DNA from: Gammaproteobacteria bacterium
Lineage (GTDB): Bacteria > Pseudomonadota > Gammaproteobacteria > GCF-002020875
Reading direction: 5' to 3'
Length of the DNA stretch: 34,454 nt
Assembly (NCBI GenBank): GCA_013349825.1
Contig: DUYW01000017.1
Span: forward strand, 1-34,454
Each line of letters begins with the position of its first letter. The stretch's first letter is position 1. Shown one piece after another: positions 304-17,949 of the stretch. Both the position numbers and the translations under genes were made by a program. The notes below the pieces were generated by a model. It saw only the letters and a list, made by a program, of their open reading frames with translations, did not search any database and was not told the DNA's origin.

Positions 304-2010
304 ATGAAAACCGCAGCCTCCACACAACAAGAGAAAATACTCGACTACACGGTACTGGCTATTCTCAGTATCGGTGCAGGCTGTGGTCTGGTCTACGAGT
401 ACCTGCTCTCTCACTACGCCGGGCGGGTACTCGGGGCGATGGAGGTGGCCATTTTTGGCATCATTACGGTGATGATGATTTTTATGGGAGTAGGCTCATT
501 TCTGGCCCGCGCCATCCGTAACCCCTACACAGGCTTTGCCTGGCTGGAGGTGCTGTTGGCTCTACTCGGTAGCACCAGCGTATTTCTGATAGGCGGGCTA
601 TTTGCCCTCTCCAGTCTGCTTCCCAGAATCTTGATGGAAACTTTCAATATCCCCATCGACCTCGCCCCTCAGGGGGGCTGGTTACAGATCACCGAACAGA
701 TTGCCCGCTTCTCTCCCTACCTGGTCGGGGCGATACTCGGCACTATGATCGGCATGGAGATTCCATTGATCGGCGAGGTACGCGCACACATCTACAACAA
801 CCCTCTCAAAAATAGTGCCGGATCGATTTATGGCTTCGACTATCTGGGTGCCGGTGCAGGGGCAACTTTGTGGCTGCTCTATATGTTATCGATGGAGGTC
901 TCTGCGGCGGCGGCTATCACCGCATCAGCCAATCTGGCGGTGGGACTGCTCTTTTTTACCCTCTTCAGGGAGAAGATTCGCTGGCCCGTAGCACTACTGG
1001 CAACCCACGTTCTGGTTGCTGTTCTGGTGCTACAGATCTTTGATAAAGGGGCGCAGTGGTCAGCCTCGATGGAAGATCTACTCTACAAGGATCGGGTGAT
1101 CTACCGGGTCAACACCAAACATCAACGGCTGGTGGTGACCGAGCGCCTGAACCATCCCAGACAACCGACGGTATTGACCTTTTATCTCAATGGACGCACC
1201 CAGTTTGCCAGCAATGATGAGCATATCTACCACGCCATGTTGACCTACCCCGCTCTGGCCGCCTCTGCTCGTCAGAAAAAGGTACTGATTGTCGGCGGTG
1301 GCGATGGTCTGGCGCTACGCGATGTGCTGCGCTGGGACCCACAACAGGTGGTGCTGCTGGAGCTGGACCCACAGCTGGTCCAACTTTTCAGAGAACCCAG
1401 CCCAGAGACAGCCCCCGATAATGCGCGTCTGTTGGCTGCAAATCAGGGATCTCTCAGTGACCCGCGAGTCAAAATTGTGGCTGGAGATGCCTTTTTGACG
1501 GTGGATCAACTACTACAGAAAGAGGCTCTTTTTGACACCATTATCGTAGATTTGCCCGATCCCTCACACCCTGACCTGAACAAGCTGTATAGTGCTCGCT
1601 TCTATGCCAAACTATCCGGTTTGCTGGCGGGAGACGGGGCGATGGCAGTACAGTCGACCTCTCCCTATCATGCACAAAATACCTTTATCAGCATTGGAAA
1701 GACCGTACACCATGCCGGTTTTCTGAATGTAGAGCAGTACCACGCCAATGTCCCCTCTTTTGGTGAGTGGGGCTGGACTATTGCCACTAAAAATGGAAAA
1801 TCAGCAAGAGATAGACTGCAGAGACTACAGCACCTGCCCATCGATGACGGCTGGAGTACCCTGGGGCTAATGCAGGCCGCATTTGAATTTGGAAAGGATT
1901 TTTATAAAACCGCTGAATCGATAGAGATCAATCGACTCGGTTCAATGGTTGCCTACCAGTACCATCACAGTGACTGGCAACAGGAGGTGGGGCTGGTGAG
2001 CAAGAGATAA
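304..2010 (+). CDS. Membrane-anchored spermidine synthase-like aminopropyltransferase
   Basis: The protein has 568 residues. The first ~250 are strongly hydrophobic with about seven membrane segments, and the C-terminal ~310 form a Rossmann-fold aminopropyltransferase. The binding motif GGGDG is at residues 331-335, an acidic SAM-site residue follows in VLLELDPQL, and the catalytic-region motif DLPDP is at 416-420, followed by the LYSARFY segment usual in spermidine synthases. Soluble SpeE has only ~290 residues, so the membrane half is a real extra domain found in the membrane-bound SpeE-like family. The predicted reaction is transfer of an aminopropyl group from decarboxylated SAM to a polyamine at the inner membrane; the acceptor is not known. 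It is the first gene of the YjfI-PspA-YjfK-channel run, and a SAM decarboxylase gene lies convergent at its far end. Confidence 0.85.
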   Translation: MKTAASTQQEKILDYTVLAILSIGAGCGLVYEYLLSHYAGRVLGAMEVAIFGIITVMMIFMGVGSFLARAIRNPYTGFAWLEVLLALLGSTSVFLIGGLFALSSLLPRILMETFNIPIDLAPQGGWLQITEQIARFSPYLVGAILGTMIGMEIPLIGEVRAHIYNNPLKNSAGSIYGFDYLGAGAGATLWLLYMLSMEVSAAAAITASANLAVGLLFFTLFREKIRWPVALLATHVLVAVLVLQIFDKGAQWSASMEDLLYKDRVIYRVNTKHQRLVVTERLNHPRQPTVLTFYLNGRTQFASNDEHIYHAMLTYPALAASARQKKVLIVGGGDGLALRDVLRWDPQQVVLLELDPQLVQLFREPSPETAPDNARLLAANQGSLSDPRVKIVAGDAFLTVDQLLQKEALFDTIIVDLPDPSHPDLNKLYSARFYAKLSGLLAGDGAMAVQSTSPYHAQNTFISIGKTVHHAGFLNVEQYHANVPSFGEWGWTIATKNGKSARDRLQRLQHLPIDDGWSTLGLMQAAFEFGKDFYKTAESIEINRLGSMVAYQYHHSDWQQEVGLVSKR

Positions 2011-2041
2011 TGATGAATAATAGCGAGTAAGGAGAGAACCA

Positions 2042-2458
2042 TTGAGTGATAAAAGAGTAACCGAGATCATAGAGCTGTTGAATGGCGCCACCACGGTGGA
2101 GGGGCTGTCGATCCATGCCGAGGTGATCAATACCGATGAGCAGATGATCAAGGTCATTATAGAGACGCGCGAAGAGCTCCCGATCATTGTCGACATCAAC
2201 GATGATCAGATTCTGGCAATCGCCAACCTGTGGGATGCCTCCGAGGTCAAACAAGAGAGCGAAGCGGAGATGATGCGCTCCATGCTACGCATGAATATCG
2301 CCCTCCCCCTCTCTGCCTTTGCCCAGACTGGCAGTCAGTACCAACTATTTGGTGCCCTCTCTACCGATAGCCGTGATGAGGTGATTATCGAAGAAGTGGA
2401 GCTATTGAGCAGCAATCTTGAAGCCGTGCTCGAAGACTTTGCTATCTACCTAAAATAA
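2042..2458 (+). CDS. yjfI: YjfI-family protein (DUF2170)
   Basis: A 138-residue acidic cytosolic protein resembling Escherichia coli YjfI (DUF2170). The reading frame opens with TTG, supported by a strong AAGGAG ribosome-binding site at 2029-2034 seven bases upstream; no ATG gives a comparable start. The family's biochemical role is unknown. Its members sit next to a PspA paralogue (YjfJ), YjfK and DUF350 proteins, as here, which points to an envelope-stress role. It starts 31 bp after the aminopropyltransferase and ends 25 bp before the PspA gene, so the three are probably co-transcribed. No catalytic motif is visible. Confidence 0.8.
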   Translation: MSDKRVTEIIELLNGATTVEGLSIHAEVINTDEQMIKVIIETREELPIIVDINDDQILAIANLWDASEVKQESEAEMMRSMLRMNIALPLSAFAQTGSQYQLFGALSTDSRDEVIIEEVELLSSNLEAVLEDFAIYLK

Positions 2459-2483
2459 AACCGTTTACTGGAGTGATACACAA

Positions 2484-3179
2484 ATGAGTTGGTTAAAAAC
2501 AATATTTGATTTTGGACGTGGCAAGGTCAATGAGACCGGCGAGGCGATTGCCAATGACCCTCGGGTTGCAATTGCCGCGATGGAGCAGAGCATCCGTGAT
2601 GCCGATTCCAAACAGGGACAGGCGAGAAGTGCCCTCACCGATGTAATGGCACAGGAGAGGCTCACCGGAAAAAGTGTCGCCGATCTAGAGGCTAAAATGG
2701 CAGAGTATGAGGGCTATGCGGTACAGGCCGATAGTAAAGGGGATGAGACCCTGTTGATGGAGGTGGTTGAGAAGATTGCCGGAATCGAGACCGAACTGGT
2801 GACCCAACGCGCAATACAAGCGGGGATGGCCGAGCAGGTTAACAACCTCAAGCGCACCGTGGCCGAGACCGAGCGCAACATCAAATCAATGAAGACTGAG
2901 ATCAAAACCATCAAGGCCACTGAGTATGCCCAACAGGCAGCGATGGAGGCCTCTGCAAAATACTCTGGAGCCTCCTCGGATACCCGCCGGGCCGCTGAGC
3001 GGATGAAGCGCATTAAAGAGAACCAGGCCCACCGCAAAGCAAAGATGGAGGCAGCTCAGGAGCTGGAGCAGGCCACCAATGGCGAAGACCTGAAGGCCAA
3101 ACTAGCCGCTGCCGGGATTGGCGCGGCCACACCACAGCGTGATGATATTCTGGCTCGCATCCGTGCCAAACAGGGATAA
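2484..3179 (+). CDS. yjfJ: PspA/IM30-family membrane-stress protein (YjfJ-like)
   Basis: The 231-residue protein begins MSWLKTIFDFGRGKVNETGE, the amphipathic N-terminal helix typical of PspA/IM30/Vipp1 proteins, and continues as an almost uninterrupted charged coiled coil from about residue 25 to 190. Known PspA-family proteins bind stressed membranes and form ESCRT-III-like rods or rings. The length and the neighbours (YjfI before, YjfK after) match the YjfJ subfamily rather than classical PspA; no PspF, PspB or PspC gene is present. A GGAG sequence at 2469-2472 can serve as ribosome-binding site. It probably acts peripherally on the inner membrane and is regulated with the cluster. Confidence 0.85.
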   Translation: MSWLKTIFDFGRGKVNETGEAIANDPRVAIAAMEQSIRDADSKQGQARSALTDVMAQERLTGKSVADLEAKMAEYEGYAVQADSKGDETLLMEVVEKIAGIETELVTQRAIQAGMAEQVNNLKRTVAETERNIKSMKTEIKTIKATEYAQQAAMEASAKYSGASSDTRRAAERMKRIKENQAHRKAKMEAAQELEQATNGEDLKAKLAAAGIGAATPQRDDILARIRAKQG

Positions 3180-3196
3180 CGGCTGAGGTCACAGCA

Positions 3197-3859
3197 ATGG
3201 GTTGGCTGAAAAAAATCGGGCTGGGTGGGATGAAAGAGGAGGCGGCTCCACGCCGTCTGGAACATCCCCGTGACCTCTCGCCCGGAGATATGGTGCAGTT
3301 TGAGTTTGCCTCTCAAGCGGAGATCAGTAACAAAACTTTTACCGTCACCCGGCTCTGGGCACTCTCCACCGGTGAAGGGGCTGCCCATCTGCAGATCTAT
3401 TACGGACTGCAAGAAGTGTCCCGGCAGCTACGCTTAAGAGTGGTTGATGAGGAGCAGATTGAGATCGCCATTGAGGTTTTACCCGATTCCCTGCTGACGA
3501 TCTTCAAGCAGCACAACATCATCGACCTGCTGGAGTCAGAGGAGCCGATGGGAGTGCTGAAAAGACGCAAGCTGGAGAAGGTGCCCGAGTCTTTCCACCC
3601 ATGGACCGCCCCGCTCTACCGTCGGGAAGGGGTACTTCTCGCCTATCGCTTCGAGGGTGACTATCGCACCCAACCGATACCAGACGAGGCTGATGCTGGA
3701 GAGGTTGGTTGTGACTACCACTGTCTGGTCTCTGATGACCGACAACATAGCGTTGAGTTTCGGGTCTTCGACGGAGGCCGCACTGAGGTCCATCTCTGTG
3801 CCGTAATTCCCCGAAGGAAGCTGGAGGCGCTGTGGCCTGCTCCTGAACAGTCCAGCTAA
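3197..3859 (+). CDS. yjfK: YjfK-family protein (DUF2491)
   Basis: A 220-residue soluble protein matching the length and character of E. coli YjfK (DUF2491, about 219 residues). It opens MGWLKKIGLGG, an amphipathic start like that of the preceding PspA paralogue, which may also favour membrane contact; this is inference. The remainder is mixed alpha/beta with a conserved-looking FHPWTAPLYRR segment near residues 131-141. No catalytic motif or membrane helix is evident. GAGG at 3185-3188 gives a well-spaced ribosome-binding site. It starts 17 bp after the PspA gene. Function is unknown; the fixed neighbourhood suggests a partner of the PspA-like protein. Confidence 0.8.
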   Translation: MGWLKKIGLGGMKEEAAPRRLEHPRDLSPGDMVQFEFASQAEISNKTFTVTRLWALSTGEGAAHLQIYYGLQEVSRQLRLRVVDEEQIEIAIEVLPDSLLTIFKQHNIIDLLESEEPMGVLKRRKLEKVPESFHPWTAPLYRREGVLLAYRFEGDYRTQPIPDEADAGEVGCDYHCLVSDDRQHSVEFRVFDGGRTEVHLCAVIPRRKLEALWPAPEQSS

Positions 3860-3877
3860 ACCCTCTATCTACCTATT

Positions 3878-4990
3878 ATGCCCAGTTTTCTAACCACACT
3901 CTGGAACCAGCACCGCTATAAAAGTCTGGCCTTCACTGAGGATGAACTGCATCATGCATTGATACAGGCCGGAGTCTTTCTGCTGATCATCTTTACACTC
4001 CATAGTGGAGCGATGATGGTCTTCGAGGGGTTCAGTGCTGCAGATGCACTGTGGTTGACACTGACCACCGCAACCACGGTGGGCTATGGTGACCTCTCTG
4101 CTGTGACCCTCTGGGGACGTGTCTCAACTGTCGTACTGTTATATATTGGGGGCATCTTTGTATTGGCCAAATTGGTCGGAGACTATTTTGATTATCGTAC
4201 TGAAAAGCGTATCCGCCAGAAGTGCGGAGAGTGGGAGTGGAACATGCAAGACCATATATTGATCATCAACACACCGAAAGAGGATGGCGAGGGATTTTTT
4301 GTTAAAATGATTGACCAGATCCGCGCCAACCCGCGCTATGGCGACAAGGTAATCCAGATACTTACCAAACGCTTTCCCAACGGACTACCCTCCAAGCTCT
4401 CGGGGATGGAGGGGGTATCCCATAAAAACCGGGATGCGCTGGATGATCAGCAGCTATTGGCTGCTGGAGCCGATAAAGCTGCAGCGATCATGATTCTTGC
4501 ACGTGAAGAGCATAACCCGGATTCAGACAGCCGCACCTTTGATATTCTGCACCGACTTCAAGAGTTCAAAATCGGCGATACACTGGTAATCGCAGAGTGC
4601 GTCAATGATCTCAACCGGGAGCGTTTCCAGCGTGCCGGGGCAGCGGTGGTAATGCGCCCGATTCGCTCCTATCCAGAGATGCTGGTACGCGGACTGGTGG
4701 CTCCGGGTTCGGAACAGATTATCGAAAATATGTTCACCTCCAACGCGGATGAGTATGTGCGCCATGAGGTCACTATTGCTAACCTGCCATGGAAGTCGGT
4801 GGTACGTCAGTTGATTGAAGAGGACCTGGGTACCGCTGTGGCCTATATTAACCATACATCCGGGCAGGTTGAGACCAACCCTCGTGCCGAGACCCTCGTG
4901 AACGGCTCCGCCCTGTTTGTGATCGCTAATGAGGACAACAGACAGAGCACTGAGGCCATACAATCTGCTCTGAATTTGGTACAGCAATGA
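3878..4990 (+). CDS. Two-TM potassium channel with RCK-like cytoplasmic domain
   Basis: The 370-residue protein has membrane helices at about residues 25-45 and 80-105 around a pore loop with the potassium selectivity filter TTVGYGD at 66-72. The cytoplasmic part (about 120-370) is laid out like a TrkA-N/RCK ligand-gating domain, but where the first beta strand should lead into GxGxxG it reads HILIINTPKEDGEGFF, so the canonical dinucleotide-binding glycines are absent. A C-terminal RCK-C-like segment follows. It sits inside the PspA/polyamine run and overlaps the next gene by ATGA, implying translational coupling. Known families predict K+ flux across the inner membrane gated by a cytoplasmic ligand; the ligand cannot be read from sequence. 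Confidence 0.85.
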   Translation: MPSFLTTLWNQHRYKSLAFTEDELHHALIQAGVFLLIIFTLHSGAMMVFEGFSAADALWLTLTTATTVGYGDLSAVTLWGRVSTVVLLYIGGIFVLAKLVGDYFDYRTEKRIRQKCGEWEWNMQDHILIINTPKEDGEGFFVKMIDQIRANPRYGDKVIQILTKRFPNGLPSKLSGMEGVSHKNRDALDDQQLLAAGADKAAAIMILAREEHNPDSDSRTFDILHRLQEFKIGDTLVIAECVNDLNRERFQRAGAAVVMRPIRSYPEMLVRGLVAPGSEQIIENMFTSNADEYVRHEVTIANLPWKSVVRQLIEEDLGTAVAYINHTSGQVETNPRAETLVNGSALFVIANEDNRQSTEAIQSALNLVQQ

Positions 4991-6051
4991 CCCATAGACA
5001 ACACAACTCCCCTCCCTTTACCTGGCTACTGTTGCTGCTCTCCACCCTGTGGATGCTGCAAGGATGTAGCAATGAGTATACCGAACAGGCACAGGCACGT
5101 GCCGACCACCTGACCTCCCGGTTGTCTACGCTCGGAGAGAAGCTGGATGCGGGTCAGCTCACCCATGCTCTACTGGTGCAAAACTACGCCAATAAACTAG
5201 AGCACTCACAGCCCGATCTCGCCCCCATCACTCAGGCCCTGGCCAAGGATGCCACCACTCAGGGCGCACTTTATCAGGGGTTGATGCAGCGGCTACAGGA
5301 GTTCAACCGTACCCCCCAGAACAAGAATGAATTTATCCAAGTGATGAAAGAGGTTCACTCTCTGGAGGCCGCCACTGACCCTGCAATCTTTAATGATGCA
5401 CTGCTCGATCTGGTCAACACCCTGGCTGACCTCTCAGCGGGCGAACTGGCTCGCATCAATATCCCTCAGAGTTCCGAGGCTGAACAGCTCAAAGGAGAGA
5501 ATGTTCCCGGCAGCTATCTGGTCGGCAACCCCAACTATGGCTCATGGGGCCAGGGGGGAAGTGGTGGTGGATTTTGGGTCTTTTATGGACAGTATCGACT
5601 GTTGAGCGACCTGTTGGGTGGCTCACGTTACAACCGGGGCATCCAGTACAACGACTGGAACTCCCGCTCACACCACTCTTACCACCGTGACTATGGACGT
5701 GATCTATACGGTAGCAGTGGAGACCGTTCACACACCCGCAGCGCCAACAGCGCGATGGAGAGACAGGGGGTAAAAGCGGCCAAACCGAAACGAAAATATG
5801 GCTCGGCAGCGGGCCAGCAGCGACGCAGTACCTACGCTACACGGCGTAGTGATTTTCAGCAGACATCGGGTAGAAAATATGGTGCCAGCGGGGGGCCGCG
5901 TCATGCAAGTACCTCATCCTCGCGCCCGTCCAATCACGCCTCCAACCAAACCAAACCACGCAGCAGCAACCGCTCTTCCAGCCTATTTGGTGGCAGCGCA
6001 CGCAGTAGCAGCCGCTCCAGCCGCGGATTCGGCGGCTTTGGTGGAAAATAA
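4987..6051 (+). CDS. Lipoprotein with Gly/Ser/Arg-rich C-terminus
   Basis: The 354-residue protein has an N-terminal signal with lipobox MLQGC (lipid-modified Cys at residue 27). Residues ~30-165 are helical and resemble a folded domain. Residues ~175-210 are Gly/aromatic-rich (GGSGGGFWVFYGQYRLLSDL), and ~215-354 are low-complexity Ser/Arg/Gly ending RGFGGFGGK. This order of lipobox, Gly-flanked FW..Y segment and basic Ser/Gly tail recalls E. coli YgiB/YjfM (DUF1190), which occupies the same neighbourhood in yjfIJKLM-type operons; homology is not certain. The start ATG overlaps the channel stop codon. The tail could bind an anionic surface such as LPS or peptidoglycan, which is inference. Confidence 0.75.
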   Translation: MTHRQHNSPPFTWLLLLLSTLWMLQGCSNEYTEQAQARADHLTSRLSTLGEKLDAGQLTHALLVQNYANKLEHSQPDLAPITQALAKDATTQGALYQGLMQRLQEFNRTPQNKNEFIQVMKEVHSLEAATDPAIFNDALLDLVNTLADLSAGELARINIPQSSEAEQLKGENVPGSYLVGNPNYGSWGQGGSGGGFWVFYGQYRLLSDLLGGSRYNRGIQYNDWNSRSHHSYHRDYGRDLYGSSGDRSHTRSANSAMERQGVKAAKPKRKYGSAAGQQRRSTYATRRSDFQQTSGRKYGASGGPRHASTSSSRPSNHASNQTKPRSSNRSSSLFGGSARSSSRSSRGFGGFGGK

Positions 6052-6075
6052 CAGCCTTCTCAGGGAACAGATACT

Positions 6076-7008
6076 ATGGAACAACTTAACTCAATGATCA
6101 TGTTATCCGACGGATCAATCGGCTACTACGTCATCGACTTTGTGATCATGCTCGGGTTTATGGCTGCATTGCGTCTGATCGCCAGCTCTATTGCAGGCAC
6201 TTCACTCGCTGAGATCCTCGCCCGACGCGACAACTTCGCCGCAGGCATCACCCTGGCAGGTGCTGTTATTGCGGTCTCGATCCTGATGATGGGGGTGGTT
6301 GCAGGTGAGGCCGGGCGCAGCTACATTGATGAGATCAGTCTGATGGCCGCCTATGGAGTGCTGGCGGTGGCATTGATGGGGGTGACTCGCAAGATCTTTG
6401 ACCACATTGCCCTGCCATCGGTATCAATTCACGCCGAAATTCTGCGCGGCAATCTTGCGGCCGGGGTTGTCGATGCAGGTAATATGATCTCCACTGCAGT
6501 TATGGTGCGCGCCGCGATGAGTTGGATTGATGGCTCCTCGTTCCTCGGGCTGGTGGTGGTACTGGTGATCTATCTGTTCTCACAACTGCTTCTGTTGGGA
6601 GCCACCCTCTATCGCAAGAAGGTATTTGAGATACGGCATCAACAGAACTACAACCAAAATGGTGACAACAGCGACAAAACACTGGCCTCTGAGATTGCTA
6701 ACGGTAATGTGGCCCTTGCACTACGCTTTGCAGGCCACCGCCTCGGCGTGGGTCTGGCGGTAACCGCCACCTCGGGTATGGTGATCTATGACCCAGCCCT
6801 GCTACTCTGGTCTCTACTGGCATGGAGTGTGGTGGCAGTGATGATGTTTCTGGCGCAGACCGGGTTTTCTATCGTATTACGTCAGATCCTGCTGCCGGGG
6901 ATCAATATCGGCCAAGAGGTAGGAGAGCAGCGTAATATTGCGATTGGCTCAATTGAGGCTGCAATCTATATCGGAGTGGGATTCACCTTTGTAGGGTTAC
7001 TGGGATAA
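6076..7008 (+). CDS. DUF350 (YjfL-like) polytopic membrane protein, duplicated
   Basis: The 310-residue protein has about eight hydrophobic segments in two halves separated by a charged loop near residues 195-220. Each half carries the FxAGxxLAGxxxAV-like pattern of DUF350 (residues ~53-68, DNFAAGITLAGAVIAVS, and a related GNLAAGVVDAGNMIS at ~122-138). E. coli YjfL has only ~132 residues, so this is a tandem duplication of the domain. DUF350 function is unknown, but the family recurs beside YjfI, YjfJ and YjfK. It begins 24 bp after the lipoprotein gene and is the last gene of the plus-strand run; only four bases separate its stop from the convergent SAM decarboxylase stop. Confidence 0.8.
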   Translation: MEQLNSMIMLSDGSIGYYVIDFVIMLGFMAALRLIASSIAGTSLAEILARRDNFAAGITLAGAVIAVSILMMGVVAGEAGRSYIDEISLMAAYGVLAVALMGVTRKIFDHIALPSVSIHAEILRGNLAAGVVDAGNMISTAVMVRAAMSWIDGSSFLGLVVVLVIYLFSQLLLLGATLYRKKVFEIRHQQNYNQNGDNSDKTLASEIANGNVALALRFAGHRLGVGLAVTATSGMVIYDPALLLWSLLAWSVVAVMMFLAQTGFSIVLRQILLPGINIGQEVGEQRNIAIGSIEAAIYIGVGFTFVGLLG

Positions 7009-7012
7009 CACA

Positions 7013-7423
7013 TCAGGGAAGTATGCCCCGTCTATGCTCTGTTACGAGTACCTTGTCTGGCTTAAAGTGCTCTTTTAATGGGGTAATTGAGGTATATGGA
7101 TCGCAGTTACCACACATAAAAATATCGATTGCTGCAAAATTACGTTCCGGCCAAGTATGAATGCTGATGTGTGATTCAGCTAAAACAGTAACACCGGTAA
7201 CCCCACCATAGGGGCTGAATTCGTGTGTATGCACACTCAGGACTGTAGCCCCGGCTGCTTCAGCCGCACGACACAGAGCAGCTTCTATTGCTGCAGCGTC
7301 ACTGAGATTTTTTGCACCCCAGAATTCGATCAACAGATGGATTCCAGCAAATAGCATCCCATCTTTCTCTATAAAATAGTCTTTTTCAGAGCTTTCTTCT
7401 TTGAGCGCAAGACTATTGTTCAT
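7013..7423 (-). CDS. speH: S-adenosylmethionine decarboxylase proenzyme
   Basis: A 136-residue prokaryotic class 1 AdoMet decarboxylase. The self-cleavage motif AESHISIHTWPE places the pyruvoyl-forming Ser at residue 84, after Glu83; His89 and Cys104 (in MCGNC) match the family's processing and catalytic residues. The enzyme converts SAM to decarboxylated SAM, the aminopropyl donor of spermidine synthases, in the cytosol. It is convergent with the 304-7008 run, whose first gene is an aminopropyltransferase, so the two enzymes complete a polyamine route in one locus. The upstream hemerythrin gene on the same strand ends 66 bp away, so the two might share a transcript. Confidence 0.93.
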   Translation of the reverse strand: MNNSLALKEESSEKDYFIEKDGMLFAGIHLLIEFWGAKNLSDAAAIEAALCRAAEAAGATVLSVHTHEFSPYGGVTGVTVLAESHISIHTWPERNFAAIDIFMCGNCDPYTSITPLKEHFKPDKVLVTEHRRGILP

Positions 7424-7489: not shown

Positions 7490-7876
7490 TCAGCTGACAT
7501 AGTGCTTGAACTTCATATCTTCAACCATGATATGTTGCTCCAGCCACTCTACCAAAAACTGTACTGTACTATTCAGGTCATCAATATTGATATTCATAAT
7601 CAGTCTAGACGCTTGATCAGAGAGCGCTCCATGAATGGATAAGTGCTGGACCAGATCAGGATACCCAACCTGTGTCATTAAGATCTCCTCTGCCTTGAAG
7701 TGAGTGTGAACATACTCATCTAACTGCATCAAAATATTGATATATTTGCTTGAACTTGGAGCTTTCTCTTCAGATAGCTCAACCAGTTCATTCACAATCC
7801 CCATCAGTGATCGGTGCTGATGGTCTATCAGAGGGTGGCCAACTGAGTATTTATTATCCCAAATGAATTTTTCCAT
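7490..7876 (-). CDS. Bacteriohemerythrin
   Basis: A 128-residue single-domain hemerythrin. All seven di-iron ligands can be placed: His21 (DHQH), His59 and Glu63 (HFKAE), His78 and His82 (HLSIH), and His115 and Asp120 (HIMVED). The family binds O2 reversibly at a non-haem di-iron site; in bacteria it serves as an O2 carrier or sensor, or in iron handling. There is no fused signalling domain, so it is a free cytosolic protein. A perfect 16-bp palindrome at 7898-7913, 21 bp upstream of its start codon, is a candidate operator. It precedes speH on the same strand, but a functional link between the two is not evident. Confidence 0.92.
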   Translation of the reverse strand: MEKFIWDNKYSVGHPLIDHQHRSLMGIVNELVELSEEKAPSSSKYINILMQLDEYVHTHFKAEEILMTQVGYPDLVQHLSIHGALSDQASRLIMNINIDDLNSTVQFLVEWLEQHIMVEDMKFKHYVS

Positions 7877-9333: not shown

Positions 9334-9549
9334 ATGGGTCGGCCACCAAACAACAAAGAGCAACGAATTCCTGCTGTACTGATCACAGTCGTGACACTAA
9401 TCGCCCTCACCTCGCCACTGATGCAGTGGTGGAGTAGCACAGAAAGCCCCTGGTTCACCCTCTATCTCTTGTGGGGTGGAATCATCCTCTTCATTGCACT
9501 GCTCAATACACCACATAGCAACAGTGGCCCCGGTGACACCACAGATTAA
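9334..9549 (+). CDS. Small two-TM protein preceding the symporter-kinase
   Basis: A 71-residue protein with two hydrophobic segments (about residues 12-31 and 40-58) joined by a WW/WF-containing loop, with polar ends. The stop codon overlaps the start of the symporter-kinase gene (TAATG), so translation of the two is coupled. Small two-TM proteins accompany several sodium/solute symporters as a small subunit, and a comparable role with the symporter half of the kinase is the obvious inference. An in-frame stop 27 bases upstream excludes a longer N-terminus. No ribosome-binding site stands out before the ATG. Confidence 0.7.
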   Translation: MGRPPNNKEQRIPAVLITVVTLIALTSPLMQWWSSTESPWFTLYLLWGGIILFIALLNTPHSNSGPGDTTD

Positions 9550-12500
9550 TGTCTATTGATCTCACTCTGCTCTTCGTATCAGGTGTAGTCTATCTGCTGA
9601 TCCTCTCTCTGATCGCCCATTTGGCAGACCGCGGAACCATTCCTGAACATTGGGTCAATAACCCCTGGGTTTACACCCTCTCTTTGGGGGTCTATGCCAC
9701 CTCCTGGAGCTTTTACGGCTCGGTTGGATTTGCACAATCGGAGGGGTTCCAGTTTATTGCCATCTATATCGGGGTTACTCTCGCCTTTATGCTGAGTCCG
9801 GTACTGTTACGACCCATTCTACGTCTTACTCAGGAGCATCAACTCTCCTCTCTGGCAGACCTTTTTGCTTTCCGCTACCGTAGTCAGTTTGCCGGAGTGC
9901 TGGTCACCCTGTTTATGTTGTTGGGAACACTCCCTTATCTTGCTCTGCAGATCCGCGCCATTACTGAATCTCTGCATATCCTGACACAGGAGATCCCTTC
10001 GCAGATGATTGCCCTTGGGTACTGTCTCCTGATCATCTTTTTCGCTATTCTGTTTGGTGCAAAACACACCTCCAGTCGAGAAAAAAATCATGGTCTGGTA
10101 TTGGCCATCGCCTTTGAAAGTTTAGTGAAATTGATTGCGATCTCCACGGTTGCGCTGGTTGCTCTGTTCGGCCTGTTTGATGGTTTTGGGGGGCTGAATC
10201 AGTGGCTACTGGAACATCCCAAGGCGACAGAATCCCTCTACCAACCAATCCAGCAAGGCCCCTGGGTGACGCTACTGTTTCTCGCCTTTGCTGCCGCATT
10301 TCTCCTGCCCCGGCAGTTTCACATGCTCTTTTCCGAGAACCTCGATAGCGGTCACCTTCGTATTGCCAGCTGGGCCTTCCCCCTCTTTCTACTACTCTTT
10401 AACCTCTCTATTCCAGTGCTGTTGTGGGCAGGAGAGCACATTGAGCTACAGATTCCGGCAGATTATTACATTCTGGGTATTGCACAGCAGAGCCAGATTG
10501 AGTGGTTGCCAACCTTAACCTTTATTGGTGGCCTATCAGCAGCCAGCTCAATGATTATTGTGACCACACTGGCTTTGACCTCAATGTGTCTCAACCATCT
10601 GATTCTTCCCATCAACTACCCTGCCCCATCGGTCAACCTCTACCAATGGTTACTGTGGGTACGGCGCGCACTGGTGGTGCTGATTATTTTTGCCGGTTAT
10701 CTCTTCTACACTCTGCTGCAACATAATGAGGGGTTGGTACAGTTGGGGCTGATCTCTTTTGTCGCAGTAACCCAGTTTGTTCCGGGGATTGTCGGATTAC
10801 TCTACTGGAAAGAGGCTACACGACTGGGGATGATCTGGGGACTGCTCGGTGGCATTGCCACCTGGTTTATTACGCTGATCCTTCCACTACTGCACCACTC
10901 CAACCTAATCCACCTCCCCGATCACTGGATTGATCTCCATACCCATTCCGGTATGACTTCATGGGAACTTTCCACCCTGCTCTCACTGCTCATCAATAGC
11001 ACCCTGTTTATTGTGGTTACACGCATCACCCGACAATCCAACGCAGAGTATGAGGCAGCTCACGCTTGCTGTACGGAGAGCTTCTTCTCGCCTCAAGGTG
11101 TGGTAATTGCCACTTCTCCGGGTGAGTTTTGTCGTGCACTTGCAATCAGTTTGGGTGAGAAGACAGCACAGAGAGAAGTTGATCAGGCTCTTCATGAACT
11201 GAACCTCTCTGCCGATGAATCTCGCCCCACCGAGTTACGTCAACTGCGTGAGCGACTAGAACAGAACCTCTCAGGTCTCATTGGTCCTCAACTCGCTTAT
11301 GTCATTATCAACCAGCGTCTTCACCTTGACACTGTCGGAAAGACAGCATTGGCAGACTCTATTCACCATATGGAAGAGCGACTGGAGAGTTCAAACCTAG
11401 AGCTAAAGGGACTCAATGCAGAGCTGGATGAACTGCGACGGATGCAGCGACAGATTCTGCTGAAGCTACCAATTGGTGTCTGTGTTATTGATGATCATAA
11501 CGGCATCATGCTGTGGAATAATATGATGGAGAGCCTAACAGGCATTGCAGAAAGTGATGTGCGCAGGAGAAATATCGATCAACTCCATGAACCCTGGTAC
11601 TCCCTGATCCAGCAACTACTCAATGCCTCTGAGGACCACCTTTATCGTATTCCTTCCCAGACAAAACAAAAGGCCTCCTGGTTCAACCTGCACCGCTCTT
11701 CCTATATTGAACCCTATCAAGACCAGAAACAGCACCATCGCGGTACCGTGCTGTTGATTGAAGATATCACTGAGTTGAAACGGCTGGAGTCTGAACTGAC
11801 GCATAATGATCGCCTGGCCTCCATTGGGCGGTTGGCTGCCGGTGTCGCTCATGAGATTGGAAACCCGATCACGGGCATCTCATGTATCGTACAAAACCTT
11901 CAGCACCTCTCCAATGGAGAGGAAACAGGGGAGAAAGAGCAAGAGACCGCTCAAGCCTACAGTGACATCATCACCCAGACAGAACGTATCAACCATATCC
12001 TCAAGACACTCACTCACTTCAGTCGCAGCAACAGCCAACCACGCTACCGTGAGCAGTTTGAGCTTTTACAGGTCATACAGGCGGCTATCCATCTGACTGA
12101 ATTAACCTACAAGAAGCAGAATATCCGCTTTATAGTACAGTGCCCTGATCAGCTTCGAATGGAAGGTGACCCTCAGGCAATGACCCAGGTCTTTATCAAC
12201 CTGTTGAGCAATGCCGGCGATGCCTCTGAACCAGGCTCTGAAATTCGGGTGGTTGCCACTCAGTACTCCCGGACAATCGAAATCGAGCTCAACGATCAGG
12301 GCACAGGCATCGCTGAAGAGAATCTTGAATCAGTTTTTGACCCTTTTGTGACCACCAAAACAGCTGGCCGGGGAACCGGGTTAGGGCTCTCCATTGTCCA
12401 CCGTATTATTGAAGAGCATAAAGGGACGATCACGCTCCACTCCACGCTTGGGGTTGGGACCACTGCACATATCACCCTTCCAGCATTGGAACCGTTGTAA
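9549..12500 (+). CDS. Sodium/solute symporter-fused sensor histidine kinase (CbrA-like)
   Basis: The 983-residue protein begins with a PutP-type sodium:solute symporter domain (about residues 1-490, roughly 13 membrane helices), then a linker (500-610) containing the RLEQNLSGLIGP segment usual in such kinases, a PAS domain (about 625-745), a HisKA domain with HEIGNPI around His768, and a HATPase with N box (NLLSNAGDAS, ~884), G1 (DQGTGIAEE) and G2 (GRGTGLGLSIV). This is the architecture of CbrA. The symporter half probably senses or carries a solute across the inner membrane and sets phosphorylation of the regulator encoded 46 bp downstream. The symporter, kinase and regulator order next to an importer and acs points to an organic-acid or amino-acid signal. 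Confidence 0.92.
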   Translation: MSIDLTLLFVSGVVYLLILSLIAHLADRGTIPEHWVNNPWVYTLSLGVYATSWSFYGSVGFAQSEGFQFIAIYIGVTLAFMLSPVLLRPILRLTQEHQLSSLADLFAFRYRSQFAGVLVTLFMLLGTLPYLALQIRAITESLHILTQEIPSQMIALGYCLLIIFFAILFGAKHTSSREKNHGLVLAIAFESLVKLIAISTVALVALFGLFDGFGGLNQWLLEHPKATESLYQPIQQGPWVTLLFLAFAAAFLLPRQFHMLFSENLDSGHLRIASWAFPLFLLLFNLSIPVLLWAGEHIELQIPADYYILGIAQQSQIEWLPTLTFIGGLSAASSMIIVTTLALTSMCLNHLILPINYPAPSVNLYQWLLWVRRALVVLIIFAGYLFYTLLQHNEGLVQLGLISFVAVTQFVPGIVGLLYWKEATRLGMIWGLLGGIATWFITLILPLLHHSNLIHLPDHWIDLHTHSGMTSWELSTLLSLLINSTLFIVVTRITRQSNAEYEAAHACCTESFFSPQGVVIATSPGEFCRALAISLGEKTAQREVDQALHELNLSADESRPTELRQLRERLEQNLSGLIGPQLAYVIINQRLHLDTVGKTALADSIHHMEERLESSNLELKGLNAELDELRRMQRQILLKLPIGVCVIDDHNGIMLWNNMMESLTGIAESDVRRRNIDQLHEPWYSLIQQLLNASEDHLYRIPSQTKQKASWFNLHRSSYIEPYQDQKQHHRGTVLLIEDITELKRLESELTHNDRLASIGRLAAGVAHEIGNPITGISCIVQNLQHLSNGEETGEKEQETAQAYSDIITQTERINHILKTLTHFSRSNSQPRYREQFELLQVIQAAIHLTELTYKKQNIRFIVQCPDQLRMEGDPQAMTQVFINLLSNAGDASEPGSEIRVVATQYSRTIEIELNDQGTGIAEENLESVFDPFVTTKTAGRGTGLGLSIVHRIIEEHKGTITLHSTLGVGTTAHITLPALEPL

Positions 12501-12546
12501 GAGCACATCAACTAAGGAGCCTATGAATAACTCATGAGAACACCAG

Positions 12547-13851
12547 ATGTATAAAATATTAATCATTGAAGATGAGAAGCTGATTCGGGAAGCACTCACA
12601 ACACTGCTGGAACGTAATGACTATAGTGTCAAAGCTGTCGACTCTGTCGAGTCTGCTGAGCAACATGAGCTACACAGCTTTCACCTTATTCTCAGTGATG
12701 TACGTCTACCCGGTCTACCCGGTACTGAAATCATTCAACGTGCGGCCCCAGTTCCCGTCATTATTATGACCAGTTACGCCGCTGTTGAATCGGCGGTAGA
12801 GGCGATGCGGATGGGGGCAATCGATTACATCTCTAAACCTTTTAATCATGACGAGATGTTAATGGTAATCGGGCGTGTACTACGTGATCGCCAGAGCCAG
12901 AAATCTTGTGAGGCACTGAAGAAGGATCTCTCCTCAATCTATCCGGTTGACCAGATTATCGGCAATAGTGAAGAGATGGTGCCAGTATTTCAGCGCTTGG
13001 AAAAGGTAGCACCTACCGACAGTACAGTCTTGATCATTGGGGAATCGGGTACCGGAAAAGAGTTAATTGCTCGGGCACTGCATGCAAAAAGTAATCGTGC
13101 CGACGATCCATTCGTCACCTTCAGCTGTACAGCAGCCTCAAAAGATTTAATGGAGGCGGAGCTATTTGGAATAAGTCGTAGTAGTGTACATCGAGAGCAC
13201 TGCCTCATTGATGAAGCAGAGGGAGGAACCCTCTTTCTCGATGAGATTGGTGAACTACCTCTCTCTGCACAAGGGCGTTTGTTGCAACTGTTGCAACCGG
13301 GTGATTTGGAGCCACATCGTGGTGGCAATATCCGAATTCTTGCATCCACCCACCAAGATTTGCGCAAACTGGTTCAGGAGGAACTATTCAGAAGCGATCT
13401 CTATTTTCGCCTCCGGGTCATTGAGATCATCCTGCCTCCACTACGCAAGCGCGGTGATGACATTACCCTGTTGGCGATCCACCTGCTTAAGGTGAGCTGC
13501 AACCATCTCAATATACAACCTCTTAAAATCAGTAAAGACTCTTTTGAAGCAATTCGTCGCTACCGCTGGCCGGGGAATGTGCGAGAGCTGGCCAACTCCA
13601 TGGAGCGTGCGGCGCTATTATGTGATGGAGAGCAGATCACTCCTGAGTTACTCTCCATTGACCACTCCATTGGAGCAACACCGTCAGAAGCTGAGCTTGA
13701 GGAGAAGCTATCTCTGGAAGAGTATTTCCGAAATTTTGTGCTCCAACATCAGGAACAGATGACCGAAACCGAATTGGCCAAGCGACTGGGTATCAGTCGA
13801 AAGTCTTTATGGATGCGCCGCCAGCGCTTTGGAATTCCCCGGAGGAAATAG
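12547..13851 (+). CDS. NtrC-class response regulator lacking GAFTGA
   Basis: The 434-residue protein has a receiver domain (phospho-acceptor Asp51 in SDVRLPG, Lys in SKPFNH), an AAA+ domain with Walker A GESGTGKE (~165) and Walker B GGTLFLDEIG (~226), sensor-II-like RWPGNVREL, and a Fis-type helix-turn-helix at the end (ELAKRLGISRKSLWMRR). After ELFG (205-208), where sigma-54 activators carry GAFTGA, it reads ISRSSVHREHCLIDEAE, about four residues shorter than usual. NtrC-class proteins without this loop (for example Rhodobacter NtrC and TyrR) do not work with sigma-54, so this one probably controls sigma-70 promoters. It is the cognate partner of the upstream symporter-kinase. Confidence 0.92.
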   Translation: MYKILIIEDEKLIREALTTLLERNDYSVKAVDSVESAEQHELHSFHLILSDVRLPGLPGTEIIQRAAPVPVIIMTSYAAVESAVEAMRMGAIDYISKPFNHDEMLMVIGRVLRDRQSQKSCEALKKDLSSIYPVDQIIGNSEEMVPVFQRLEKVAPTDSTVLIIGESGTGKELIARALHAKSNRADDPFVTFSCTAASKDLMEAELFGISRSSVHREHCLIDEAEGGTLFLDEIGELPLSAQGRLLQLLQPGDLEPHRGGNIRILASTHQDLRKLVQEELFRSDLYFRLRVIEIILPPLRKRGDDITLLAIHLLKVSCNHLNIQPLKISKDSFEAIRRYRWPGNVRELANSMERAALLCDGEQITPELLSIDHSIGATPSEAELEEKLSLEEYFRNFVLQHQEQMTETELAKRLGISRKSLWMRRQRFGIPRRK

Positions 13852-13868
13852 TTATAAGATAATATTAG

Positions 13869-14027
13869 GTGCCTGTCCAAGAATAGAGAGCCTACTGCGG
13901 GAAAGCTGAATTTGGCCATATTCCCCCATCCTTTTCGTTAAATAGTAGAACTATTCGCCTCAAATGATGACAAAATCTGTCTCAAATCAGCCTCCCCTCG
14001 TTACGACTTCTATTCTCGGACAACCAC
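13869..14027. mobile_element. MITE-like element with ~21-bp inverted ends
   Basis: The left end GTGCCTGTCCAAGAATAGAG and the reverse complement of the right end, GTGGTTGTCCGAGAATAGAA, match at about 16 of 20 positions. The element is 159 bp long with no coding frame. It is flanked by TTAG on the left and CTAG on the right, both YTAR tetranucleotides as preferred by IS5-family transposases, so it may be a non-autonomous derivative. An internal AATAGT-AGA-ACTATT hairpin is present. It lies between the regulator gene and livK. Confidence 0.65.
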
Positions 14028-14031
14028 CTAG

Positions 14032-14053
14032 GGAATTTCTGAATAAGTCTGGG
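14032..14053 (-). repeat. Solo end of the dispersed repeat family
   Basis: GGAATTTCTGAATAAGTCTGGG is the inverted right end of the repeat at 104-179 and 19674-19749 with about three changes. It directly follows the CTAG flank of the 13869-14027 element. No partner end was found to its right, so it is a remnant. Confidence 0.5.
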
Positions 14054-14114
14054 CTATTGTTCAGTTGTCGGAGTACTTAGTATTTAATCAAATTTTTCTA
14101 CGACATCCACAGAA

Positions 14115-14161
14115 GTAACAGCCATGTTACCTTTCGTAACACTTATAGATTATTCTGTTAC
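14115..14161. promoter_or_regulatory. Cluster of four TGTTAC/GTAACA half-sites upstream of livK
   Basis: Half-sites occur at 14115-14120 (GTAACA), 14125-14130 (TGTTAC), 14136-14141 (GTAACA) and 14156-14161 (TGTTAC). The middle pair forms TGTTAC-N5-GTAACA, identical in layout to 9300-9316. Start-to-start spacings of 10, 11 and 20 bases put the sites near one face of the helix. They lie about 230-280 bp before livK and are the best candidate binding region for the regulator encoded at 12547-13851. Confidence 0.65.
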
Positions 14162-14393
14162 TTTTCGGATCATAGTATAGAAAAAATCTCAAAAAAACCC
14201 TAAAACAATCAAACATTTAATTTGATTCGTGTAGATGAATACGCCAGAATGGGGGGACAAGATCTACATACCTATACTCAGTCTTCAGGCGCTCTCGACA
14301 TCACCGATGGACGCTTCTGAACTGAGCAAACGGATGATCTACCAAAGTCACTAATTTTAAAGATTGAGATCAACCTGGAAGGAGAGAGAAAAT

Positions 14394-15734
14394 ATGTCCG
14401 ATAATAATTGGAGTCGTAGAGATGTACTCAAGGCGAGCGTTGCATTTGCAGCAGCAGGAGCCGCGCCAATGTTCTTCACCAAAGATGCATGGGCCGCCAA
14501 AAACTTTATGAACAATCCGGGTAGCTCTTCTACCGTTACCCTGGGTTTTAATGTGCCTCAGACAGGCGCCTATGCCGATGAAGGTGCAGATGAACTTCGT
14601 GCATTCAAGCTGGCGGTGAAGCACCTCAATGGTGAAGGTGACAGTGGTATGATGAATACCATGAAGCCCTCTGTGCTAAAAGGCAATGGTATTCTTGGCA
14701 AAAAGGTGACTTATGTGACCGGCGACACCCAGACCAAATCAGATGCTGCACGCGCCTCTGCCAAGCGCATGATTGAGAAAGATGGCGTAATTATGTTCTC
14801 GGGCGGCTCCTCTTCCGGTGTCGCAATCGCCGTACAAGGGCTTGCCCAAGAGATGGGGGTGGTCTTTATGGCGGGTCTGACGCACTCCAATGACACAACC
14901 GGCAAAGACAAACGTCGTTATGGTTTCCGTCACTTCTTCAATGCGAAGATGTCCGGTTCTGCACTGGGTCCGGTGCTGAAAGAGCGTATGGGAACAGACC
15001 GTAATGCCTATCATTTGACAGCAGACTACACCTGGGGATGGACTCAGGAGCAGTCTATTAAAGAGACTACCGAAAATCTGGGCTGGAATACGGCCAAAGC
15101 GGTCAAGACTCCGGTAGGTGCGGGTGACTTCTCACAGTACATCACCCCCATCCTCAACTCTGGTGCCGACACACTAATTCTGAATCACTACGGCAAGGAT
15201 ATGATCAACTCCCTGACTCAGGCCGTTCAGTTCGGTCTGCGTGACAAGCAGGTGAATGGTAAAGATTTCCAGATTATCGTACCGCTCTACTCGCGTCTGA
15301 TGGCGCAGGGTGCAGGCGAAAACCTCAAGGGTATTCTCGGAACCACCAACTGGAATTGGGCACTCTCGGATCACGGTTCACAGGCATTCGTGAAGTCTTT
15401 TGGTAACGAATATGGTTTCCCACCTTCACAGGCTGCACACACTTGCTATGTACAGACACTGCTCTATGCAAATGCCTGTGAGATGGCAGGTACCTTCTAC
15501 CCACCTGAAGTGATCAAACAGCTTGAAGGCTTCAAGTTTGACGGTATGGGCAACGGTAAAACGGAGTACCGCGCAGCGGATCACCAGTGCTTCAAGGATG
15601 TTCTCGTTGTAGAGGGTAACCAGAACCCTTCCAGCCAGTTCGACCTACTGAAGATCGTTAAGGAGGTGCCACGCTCACAGGTTGAGTATGATGCCTCTAT
15701 CTTTGGTGGTAATCTCGGTCCTTACGAGGTCTAA
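14394..15734 (+). CDS. ABC transporter substrate-binding protein (LivK/UrtA-like), Tat-exported
   Basis: From ATG 14394, placed by a GGAGAGAG ribosome-binding site, the protein has 446 residues. The N-terminus carries a twin-arginine signal (SRRDVLKA) and probable cleavage after AWA near residue 38. The rest is a type 1 periplasmic binding protein of the branched-chain amino acid/amide family (GFNVPQTGAYADEGADELRA near the start, FSGGSSSGVAIAVQ in the first lobe). It binds a small solute in the periplasm for the permease genes downstream. A terminator separates it from livH, so it is probably made in excess of the permease, as is usual for binding proteins. The substrate is not readable; the neighbouring acs gene suggests a short-chain carboxylate or a related amide or amino acid. 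Confidence 0.88.
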   Translation: MSDNNWSRRDVLKASVAFAAAGAAPMFFTKDAWAAKNFMNNPGSSSTVTLGFNVPQTGAYADEGADELRAFKLAVKHLNGEGDSGMMNTMKPSVLKGNGILGKKVTYVTGDTQTKSDAARASAKRMIEKDGVIMFSGGSSSGVAIAVQGLAQEMGVVFMAGLTHSNDTTGKDKRRYGFRHFFNAKMSGSALGPVLKERMGTDRNAYHLTADYTWGWTQEQSIKETTENLGWNTAKAVKTPVGAGDFSQYITPILNSGADTLILNHYGKDMINSLTQAVQFGLRDKQVNGKDFQIIVPLYSRLMAQGAGENLKGILGTTNWNWALSDHGSQAFVKSFGNEYGFPPSQAAHTCYVQTLLYANACEMAGTFYPPEVIKQLEGFKFDGMGNGKTEYRAADHQCFKDVLVVEGNQNPSSQFDLLKIVKEVPRSQVEYDASIFGGNLGPYEV

Positions 15735-15746
15735 GAGCGGGGGGAT

Positions 15747-15783
15747 AATGGCGACCACAGTCCCAATGTGGTCGCCATTTTTT
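15747..15783 (+). terminator. Strong intrinsic terminator between livK and livH
   Basis: A perfect 13-bp stem (AATGGCGACCACA at 15747-15759 pairing with TGTGGTCGCCATT at 15767-15779) with a 7-base loop, followed by a run of six T (15778-15783). It sits 12 bp after the livK stop codon and 26 bp before the livH start. Partial read-through here would give high binding-protein and low permease expression; the hairpin also protects the livK mRNA 3' end. Confidence 0.9.
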
Positions 15784-15809
15784 ACTGATGATTGAACCGG
15801 GATAAATCT

Positions 15810-16826: not shown

Positions 16827-16829
16827 CCG

Positions 16830-17945
16830 ATGAACTTTTCTGAAACACGTAGTGACCTGACCCTGATGCTGATCTTCTCGGCGGTAGTACTGACGATGCC
16901 GTTGTGGCTGGCTCCTATTGGAGCCGGATACCCTGATCTGCTGCAGAAATTTGCAATCTTCGGCATCTTTGCCATCGGCTACAACATCCTGTTCGGACTC
17001 ACCGGCTACCTCTCTTTTGGCCATGCGGCCTTTCTGGGAATTGGCTCTTACACGGCAGTCTGGTCTTTTAAACTATTGACGATGAATGTGCTCCCCGCAA
17101 TTTTCTTCGCCATCATCATGACGGGACTGTTTGCGGCACTGATTGGCTTTATCTCACTGCGCCGTTCCGGTATCTATTTCTCGATCCTGACGCTGGCGTT
17201 TGCACAGATGAGTTATAACCTCGCCTATTCGGTACTCACACCAATCACCAATGGTGAGACCGGACTACAATTGACGCTGCAAGATGCCCGAATTCTCGAT
17301 GGCCCGGCAGGCGCAGGATTGCCCTCTACAGAGCTGTTTGGTATCTCCATGAGCGGCTACTCCGGCTTCTACTTCTGTGCTGTAGTACTGATCATCGCCT
17401 TCTTCTTCTCGTTGAAGATCTTCCGTTCCCCCTTTGGTATGAAGCTACAAGCAATCAAGTCTAACCAGACACGGATGAAATATACCGGCTACAACACACG
17501 CCCCTACCTGATGACCGCCTTTATCATCTCCGGTATGTATGCTGGGTTGGCAGGTGCGCTGATGGCCGTCACCGACCCACTCGCAGGTGCAGAACGCATG
17601 CAATGGACAGCTTCCGGTGAGGTGGTACTGATGACCATCCTAGGAGGCGTTGGCACCCTGTTTGGTCCACTGCTTGGGGTTGGCATCATTAAGTACTTTG
17701 AGAATATCTTTTCGGCCATCAATGAAGAGGCTCTCCACAGTTTCTTCTCCTTTCTTCCCGGTTTTCTGGAGAACCTTCTGGTTGCCATCACCTCTCCATT
17801 TGTGGGTGAAGGGTGGCATCTGACACTGGGTGTACTCTTTATGGTGATCGTAATCTTCCTCCCCGGTGGCATTATGGAGGGGATAGACCGAATCAAGAAA
17901 CGCTACAGGAACCAGGGTACCAAGACCACCCCGGAAAAGGAGTAG
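16830..17945 (+). CDS. ABC transporter permease, LivM family
   Basis: A 371-residue polytopic protein. The [25 protein letters not shown] region (about residues 50-74) is the LivM hallmark, and [23 protein letters not shown] near 200-222 is the coupling helix. It ends with a basic cytoplasmic tail (RIKKRYRNQ). GGAGG immediately upstream gives a strong ribosome-binding site. It pairs with LivH in the importer. The gene is in a tight operon: 3 bp after livH and 4 bp before livG. Confidence 0.92.
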
Positions 17946-17949
17946 CCCG

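Follow-up and report, generated by a model that had tools for sequence, protein, structure and literature searches.

The eight genes at positions 304-7423 of the window, i.e. the whole stretch of 34,454 nucleotides that was analyzed, are a widespread bacterial envelope operon that has already been largely described. What is new relative to Ravi et al. 2024 is that the tail protein encoded in this operon ends with lysine, that this lysine is linked to a membrane-anchored SpeE-type protein (TM-SpeE), and that the topology of the latter appears to be periplasmic. We propose, at a probability slightly below one half (about 0.48), that the operon is an envelope-modification system in which TM-SpeE would aminopropylate the C-terminal lysine of the lipoprotein tail in the periplasm.

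The block consists of seven tightly packed plus-strand genes, separated by 31, 25, 17, 18, -4 and 24 nucleotides, and of a convergent AdoMet decarboxylase gene that follows after 4 nucleotides. The first gene (304-2010) encodes TM-SpeE (NF002956, 564.6 bits, above the cut-off), with a 7-TM region at approximately residues 8-258 and an aminopropyltransferase domain at approximately 262-562. It is followed by genes for YjfI (DUF2170, CesT/Tir-like; 2042-2458; PF09938, 5.6e-29), a YjfJ-type PspA/IM30 family protein (2484-3179; PF04012, 3.1e-32), a DUF4178 protein, P4 (3197-3859), a two-TM K+ channel with a TVGYGD filter and an RCK/TrkA-like domain (3878-4990; PF07885 (Ion_trans_2), 1.9e-10, RCK/TrkA_N matches being weak), a lipoprotein with lipobox LQGC and a Ser/Arg/Gly-rich tail ending with GFGGFGGK (4987-6051), and a double DUF350, 8-TM YjfL-like membrane protein (6076-7008; PF03994, 1e-39). 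The convergent speD is on the minus strand (7013-7423; TIGR03330, 7.1e-38). Open reading frames and family matches thus bear out the gene content given in a preliminary description of this DNA, apart from the fourth gene, which had been labeled YjfK. This label was rejected since PF10679, the DUF2491 model, matches nothing in the genome and hhalign against the YjfK alignment gave a probability of 2.2%. The assignment of P4 to DUF4178 comes from its homologs, 18 of 44 of which match PF13785 (best match 3.6e-7). The AF2 model of P4 (pLDDT 91.6) is beta-rich, and a Foldseek comparison with the PDB gave no match at E<=0.001; the best VIA Z was 3.9, with the YjfI/BacA structure 8q8o at Z 3.3 only. 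Without a convincing match in the PDB, no function was read from the fold.

The same gene set recurs in dozens of genomes and in several gene orders, so the linkage is not due to chance. About 140 relatives were compared. In the 65 clusters uninterrupted by a contig end, YjfI and PspA are present in 56, the K+ channel in 39 and a linked speD in 13; no fewer than five distinct arrangements of the genes include speD. The proposal that the aminopropyltransferase, the channel and the decarboxylase belong with YjfI-PspA therefore holds in the neighborhood survey, the cluster being found in many other genomes and not only in this one. Minimal clusters made of the lipoprotein, DUF350 and TM-SpeE genes also exist, without YjfI and PspA. 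The layout was published as the 'second group' of CesT/Tir(YjfI)-PspA operons, with Shewanella AAN56744-AAN56747 as the example (Ravi et al. 2024, PMC11237479). The window has the YjfI-PspA dyad adjoining a 7TM-fused SpeE that defines this group, and shares with it DUF4178, the 8-TM DUF350 protein and a lipoprotein, that of Ravi et al. bearing the family name Ctha_1186. The RHH regulator gene, optional in the group, is absent from the window. Conversely, the text of Ravi et al. on the second group includes neither the K+ channel nor the AdoMet decarboxylase, both present here, and it mentions neither a C-terminal lysine, nor its link with TM-SpeE, nor a periplasmic topology.

The window also resembles the E. 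coli yjfIJKLM-yjfC and tolC-ygiB-ygiC loci, with which it shares YjfI, PspA, DUF350, a lipoprotein with a Gly-rich tail and a polyamine-type enzyme; a K+ channel of the same family as that of the window occurs in many relatives of the E. coli system, i.e. in yjf clusters of the ATP-grasp type. However, the two hallmarks of the E. coli type, a DUF2491 YjfK and an ATP-grasp YjfC, are not found in the window, where DUF4178 takes the place of the former and TM-SpeE that of the latter, a peptide-spermidine ligase. Moreover, the lipoprotein tail ends with Gly-Gly in the E. coli type and with Gly-Lys in the window.

The cluster lipoprotein ends with Gly-Lys in all 72 complete homologs, even though the tail before it is variable over much of its length, and such an end is found in only about 1 of 925 other open reading frames of the same loci. 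In the window, the codon of this invariant lysine, the proposed acceptor, is at 6046-6048 on the plus strand. We then used a blind scan that required a TM segment and a Gly/Ser-rich composition of the last 24 residues, the terminal residue being unused. Among 53 separately sampled TM-SpeE loci it retrieved 40 tail proteins, 38 of which end with lysine; 27 of these 38 fall outside the lipoprotein family represented in the window or are at most its very remote relatives. None of the 7 tail proteins from 24 loci without TM-SpeE ends with lysine (Fisher 6e-7, for rows that are not phylogenetically independent). The lysine-ended partners, whose tails are predicted to be extracytoplasmic, belong to several unrelated families, including lipoproteins and single-TM proteins of 46-100 residues that end with GGK, GHK, THK or RIK/RVK; in some cases the lysine tail is fused behind a TM segment on DUF4178 itself. 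A filter demanding Gly-Lys misses the His-Lys and Ile/Val-Lys tails. All tails of four further plasmid loci, one of them from Gemmatimonadota, end with lysine as well. Counting against the proposal, a tail protein was not found beside 5 of the 53 TM-SpeE genes (L118, L270, L280, L299 and L302). Beside ATP-grasp enzymes of the YjfC/YgiC type, which RefSeq names peptide-spermidine ligases, 15 of 19 tails end with Gly-Gly and none with lysine. The terminal residue therefore tracks the enzyme, a match that counts in favor of tail aminopropylation together with the invariant Gly-Lys end and the outcome of the blind scan.

The AF2 model of TM-SpeE (pLDDT 88) shows seven helices followed by a SpeE fold, and its catalytic part matches the T. 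thermophilus aminopropyltransferase 1uir and thermospermine synthase 6bq2. The GGGDG, DExxYH and DLPDP motifs are conserved. Aminopropyl transfer is thus the predicted activity, given this modeled fold and the intact active-site motifs, which are common to soluble spermidine and thermospermine synthases (SpeE, ACL5 type); a PSFG.WGW motif recalls the thermospermine/triamine branch. TM-SpeE differs from the soluble enzymes in its 7-TM anchor, its link with lysine-tail proteins, its predicted location outside the cytoplasm and its near lack of cysteines. An excess of Lys and Arg on the N-terminal side was found in 81/81 and 57/57 sequences, so that the positive-inside rule places the N-terminus inside and the catalytic domain outside in all 138. 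This domain is free of cysteine in 80/81 and 45/57 sequences, compared with 2-7 cysteines in each of nine soluble SpeEs. These sequence signals, indirect as they are, suggest a periplasmic location of the catalytic domain, and this also counts for the proposal. A periplasm-facing catalytic part and, beside it in the window, a membrane-anchored partner with a C-terminal lysine suggest decoration of the tail rather than synthesis of a free polyamine.

Like putrescine, the side chain of lysine is an aminobutylamine. TM-SpeE would lie in the inner membrane, expose its aminopropyltransferase domain to the periplasm and move an aminopropyl group from decarboxylated AdoMet, which the linked SpeD would make, onto the C-terminal lysine of the tail at its epsilon-amine; the product would be a spermidine-like side chain. 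Hypusine and silaffin-type polyamination are known cases of a protein lysine extended by a polyamine-like chain; the product type would be similar here, although enzymes and donors differ. A periplasmic TM-SpeE would need its donor to be exported, which counts against the proposal; DUF350, the best candidate, may ensure this transport or else substrate docking. YjfI, PspA, DUF4178 and the K+ channel may constitute a cytoplasmic/membrane-state layer. A possible though tentative extension, with the odds running somewhat against it, is that there are two routes to polycationic tails: TM-SpeE would modify the C-terminal lysine of dedicated envelope tails, and ATP-grasp ligases would join spermidine to Gly-Gly tails.

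The distribution of AdoMet decarboxylase bears on this mechanism in both directions. The window speD, the only such gene found in the genome (single PF02675 match), is predicted to be of class 1b from its ESH-x-x-x-HTWPE processing motif and family model. The SpeD tree is mostly unresolved, with long branches; in it, the SpeD proteins of the window and of relative L143 fall apart, and they are 44% identical compared with 69-81% for the operon genes, which weakly hints at separate acquisition of speD. Its repeated linkage to the cluster counts for tail aminopropylation. However, the enzyme would then be expected in every host, and it is absent altogether from 19 of the 33 genomes whose cluster lacks a linked speD, where the TM-SpeE active-site residues are unchanged. 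This counts against the proposal, and the idea that speD always supplies the donor was rejected. Shewanella is a case in point, with no AdoMet decarboxylase in 8 of 8 genomes searched with PF02675, nor in six more, for which TIGR03331, a class 1a model, was the sole search model.

The C-terminal lysine of Lpp (Braun lipoprotein) is a known peptidoglycan attachment point. The tail lysine could instead serve as such an anchor, attached through an L,D-transpeptidase, or guide the docking of TM-SpeE; in either case TM-SpeE would aminopropylate another periplasmic amine, e.g. one in a stem peptide or on a lipid head group. Besides this precedent, the lipoprotein has a weak Lpp/OprI-type N-terminal match (E 0.028), and many lipobox +2 residues are compatible with outer-membrane sorting. 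We nevertheless consider this unlikely, as lysine tails are also present on tiny inner-membrane proteins and DUF4178-TM fusions, and as the terminal residue switches to Gly beside the ATP-grasp ligase. Rather unlikely, too, is the reading of the preliminary description and of Ravi et al. 2024 (PMC11237479), in whose proposal polyamine chemistry already serves as the input to a membrane response by PspA: TM-SpeE would make a free spermidine-like polyamine at the membrane, a PspA-YjfI complex would sense it or use it for membrane structure, and the K+ channel would balance charge. PspA and polyamine-type enzymes do share an operon, and the SpeE fold and motifs are intact. For this genome, however, free spermidine is disfavored as the product, because neither an ornithine or arginine decarboxylase, the source of putrescine, nor a soluble SpeE was detected in this 98%-complete genome (a further point for tail aminopropylation), because many cluster-bearing genomes are devoid of AdoMet decarboxylase, and because the catalytic domain seems to lie on the periplasmic side; this reading also leaves the lysine tails unexplained and fits poorly with the minimal clusters devoid of YjfI and PspA. 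Finally, that TM-SpeE puts another AdoMet-derived group (e.g. 3-amino-3-carboxypropyl or methyl) on the same tails, SpeD being linked in a subset only, would accommodate the hosts lacking AdoMet decarboxylase but is improbable, as every SpeE motif residue is kept with or without SpeD, no residue was found to separate the TM-SpeE proteins of the two kinds of host, and speD has repeatedly been re-linked to the cluster.

Membrane SpeE, DUF350 and DUF4178 genes occur across Proteobacteria and beyond. By pointing to a definite substrate residue and compartment, the lysine-tail rule makes both their function and the role of AdoMet decarboxylase testable. If true, tail aminopropylation would be a novel type of protein modification in bacteria, located in the envelope. 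It would account for the co-occurrence of PspA-type genes with polyamine enzymes, and would give a purpose to an AdoMet decarboxylase that occurs without a polyamine pathway.

ORF and family searches placed all eight genes of the block where the preliminary description had located them. The seven plus-strand genes span 304-7008, with intergenic gaps of 31, 25, 17, 18, -4 and 24 nt, and encode TM-SpeE (304-2010, a 7-TM domain fused to an aminopropyltransferase domain), YjfI (DUF2170), PspA, a DUF4178 protein, a K+ channel, a lipoprotein and a DUF350 protein. The speD gene lies tail-to-tail with this operon, 4 nt downstream of its last gene. The window is one entire contig of 34,454 bases (the genome has 2.87 Mb in 274 contigs and is 98% complete), and the upstream context is cut because TM-SpeE begins 304 bases from the end of the contig. 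The earlier label YjfK for the gene at 3197-3859 is ruled out: a DUF2491 profile search of this gene gave zero matches, comparison with the YjfK alignment gave 2.2% probability, and 18 of 44 homologues of the protein match DUF4178. A bacteriohemerythrin gene (7490-7876) adjoins speD, with no sign of cluster membership in relatives. Further downstream, 9549-18966 contains a large sensor kinase and a sigma-54 response regulator, then ABC transporter genes of the urea/branched-chain-amino-acid type.

The operon itself belongs to an already published class and, as an operon discovery, is ordinary. In Ravi et al. 2024 (PMC11237479), the authors set out a second group of YjfI(CesT/Tir)-PspA operons with a 7TM-fused spermidine-synthase-like protein, an 8-TM DUF350 protein, a lipoprotein, DUF4178 and sometimes an RHH regulator; in their scheme the K+ channel goes with a third group, which has an ATP-grasp ligase, and AdoMet decarboxylase goes with variants that lack PspA. 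The window is a variant of the second group, with the same set plus channel and speD, but without the RHH gene. Our survey started from DUF2170, found in 27 of 369 genomes from the class, and gene maps of these loci revealed the group-2 set in many families and ATP-grasp-type clusters as a separate class with the same channel family. Scanning the collection with TM-SpeE yielded the 80 nearest loci, among them Shewanella, Colwellia, Pseudoalteromonas, Methylococcaceae, Alphaproteobacteria and MAGs labelled Polarisedimenticolaceae. Among the 65 loci not cut by a contig end, DUF350 is present in 63, the lipoprotein in 62, DUF4178 in 57, YjfI and PspA in 56 each, RHH in 50, the channel in 39 and a linked speD in 13. 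The association of channel, decarboxylase and TM-SpeE with YjfI-PspA thus recurs beyond the window genome. The RHH-like regulator lies behind DUF4178 in most clusters (L045, L048, L054, L057 and most genome-contig loci) and is absent from the window's genus. A minimal cluster, lipoprotein-DUF350-TM-SpeE, occurs in Motilimonas and Psychromonas, and in Moritella with a short speD-like gene.

The lipoprotein ends in Gly-Lys in 72/72 complete homologues (a contig end truncates one further homologue), while the Ser/Arg/Lys-rich tail before it varies over much of its length. Background ORFs of at least 200 aa from the same loci (about 925) include a single GK ending, and Lys is the last residue in about 12% of them. 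Other TM-SpeE genes would likewise be expected to adjoin a Lys-ended membrane protein; 53 separately sampled loci served to test this prediction, with a tail scan that did not use the terminal residue as criterion. It returned 40 tail proteins, 38 of them Lys-ended, 27 of which are outside the window's lipoprotein family or only very distant to it; ten more loci have such a partner by eye, missed by the filter, and at 5/53 none was found by scan or eye. Partners comprise two kinds of lipoprotein, small single-TM proteins, and DUF4178 with the tail behind a C-terminal TM. In the last type, at L268, L271, L274, L276, L281, L309 and L111, the fused Gly/Ser tail ends in His-Lys. Further plasmid loci, Gemmatimonadota included, are Lys-ended in 4/4, and the same scan of 24 control loci without TM-SpeE gave 7 tails, 0 Lys-ended. 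Fisher values overstate significance because the rows are related by descent; more weight lies on the recurrence across partner families that are unrelated. Tails adjacent to ATP-grasp enzymes (n=19) comprise 15 Gly-Gly, E. coli YjfM and YgiB among them, three Gly-Ser, one Cys-Gly and none with Lys. RefSeq annotates E. coli YjfC and YgiC as peptide-spermidine ligases. At L035-L044, L236-L238 and L316-L327, lipoproteins beside such ligases are mostly Gly-Gly-ended, often with an internal SRGGFG motif, which fits ligases that use a C-terminal glycine as their substrate.

On the simplest interpretation, TM-SpeE would use the tail lysine as acceptor. The lysine side chain, like putrescine, is an aminobutylamine, so aminopropylation of the terminal lysine would yield N-epsilon-(3-aminopropyl)lysine. 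Gly-Gly tails would instead be modified through amide formation, catalysed by E. coli YjfC and YgiC. In the AF2 model (pLDDT 88), TM-SpeE consists of seven membrane helices and a SpeE domain; the PDB structures that match this domain best are triamine/agmatine and thermospermine synthases. K+R excess in the N-terminal-side loops (81/81 group-2 and 57/57 other TM-SpeEs), together with seven helices, predicts an outside catalytic domain. This domain is cysteine-free in 80/81 group-2 and 45/57 other TM-SpeEs, compared with 2-7 Cys in nine soluble SpeEs, that of E. coli among them. The tails of the lipoproteins and small-TM proteins, and most of those fused to DUF4178, are likewise predicted to lie outside, which would place the lysine tails in one compartment with the enzyme domain. 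The presumed donor is made on the other side, in the cytoplasm; its export by DUF350 is a guess, as are roles for the channel and PspA. Ravi et al. (PMC11237479), with reference to Li et al. 2019, had already proposed that what PspA systems monitor is polyamine or 'aminopropylation of other substrates'; the preliminary idea that polyamine tunes PspA is unsupported. As rivals to lysine aminopropylation, TM-SpeE could make free polyamine, the tail lysine could be a peptidoglycan anchor or docking element, or TM-SpeE could transfer a group other than aminopropyl.

Polyamine background bears on the first and last of these. The cluster speD is the sole AdoMet decarboxylase detected in the window genome, and TM-SpeE the sole good SpeE match (one other is weak, 38 bits). 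Two candidate Orn/Arg decarboxylase matches (contigs C72 and C47) proved to be one lysA split over two contigs, which reveals a fragmented assembly. With no ornithine/arginine decarboxylase found and a PF01276 search empty, the decarboxylase searches yielded no known putrescine route in this genome. Linked speD occurs in at least five placements. It converges on the operon at the 3' end (window) or diverges from it at the 5' end; elsewhere it precedes YjfI-PspA in opposite orientation, sits upstream in the same orientation, or follows TM-SpeE. Between the window and its relative G004, operon proteins share 69-81% identity but SpeD only 44%, and the two speD genes lie at opposite operon ends. 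In Moritella clusters without YjfI/PspA, TM-SpeE is immediately followed by a shortened speD-like ORF of about 106 aa (LLAESHAAVHTFPE; L173:11733-12053, L180:11777-12100, L194:11732-12055). Genomes of clusters with linked speD (n=17) mostly have no second AdoMet decarboxylase copy; of 33 genomes without linked speD, 14 have one elsewhere and 19 none. These 19 include all eight Shewanella species searched with PF02675. The class 1a model TIGR03331 gave the same picture apart from a single sub-cut-off match, in the genome of L209; it also detected no decarboxylase in six Shewanella species beyond those of the PF02675 search. The genomes with the Shewanella loci L191, L192, L195, L200, L206, L208, L214 and L219, and those with several Colwellia loci, keep a TM-SpeE with all SpeE motifs and a Lys-tail lipoprotein, yet have no detectable AdoMet decarboxylase. 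The active-site residues are identical across speD-linked, unlinked-speD and no-decarboxylase hosts, and this unchanged site in hosts without AdoMet decarboxylase is the observation that is hardest to explain.

Lysine tails are unmentioned in the literature searched, a search that did not reach two key papers. The lysine-tail rule, read from sequence, is strong and apparently not reported before, and it makes the function of membrane aminopropyltransferases testable.
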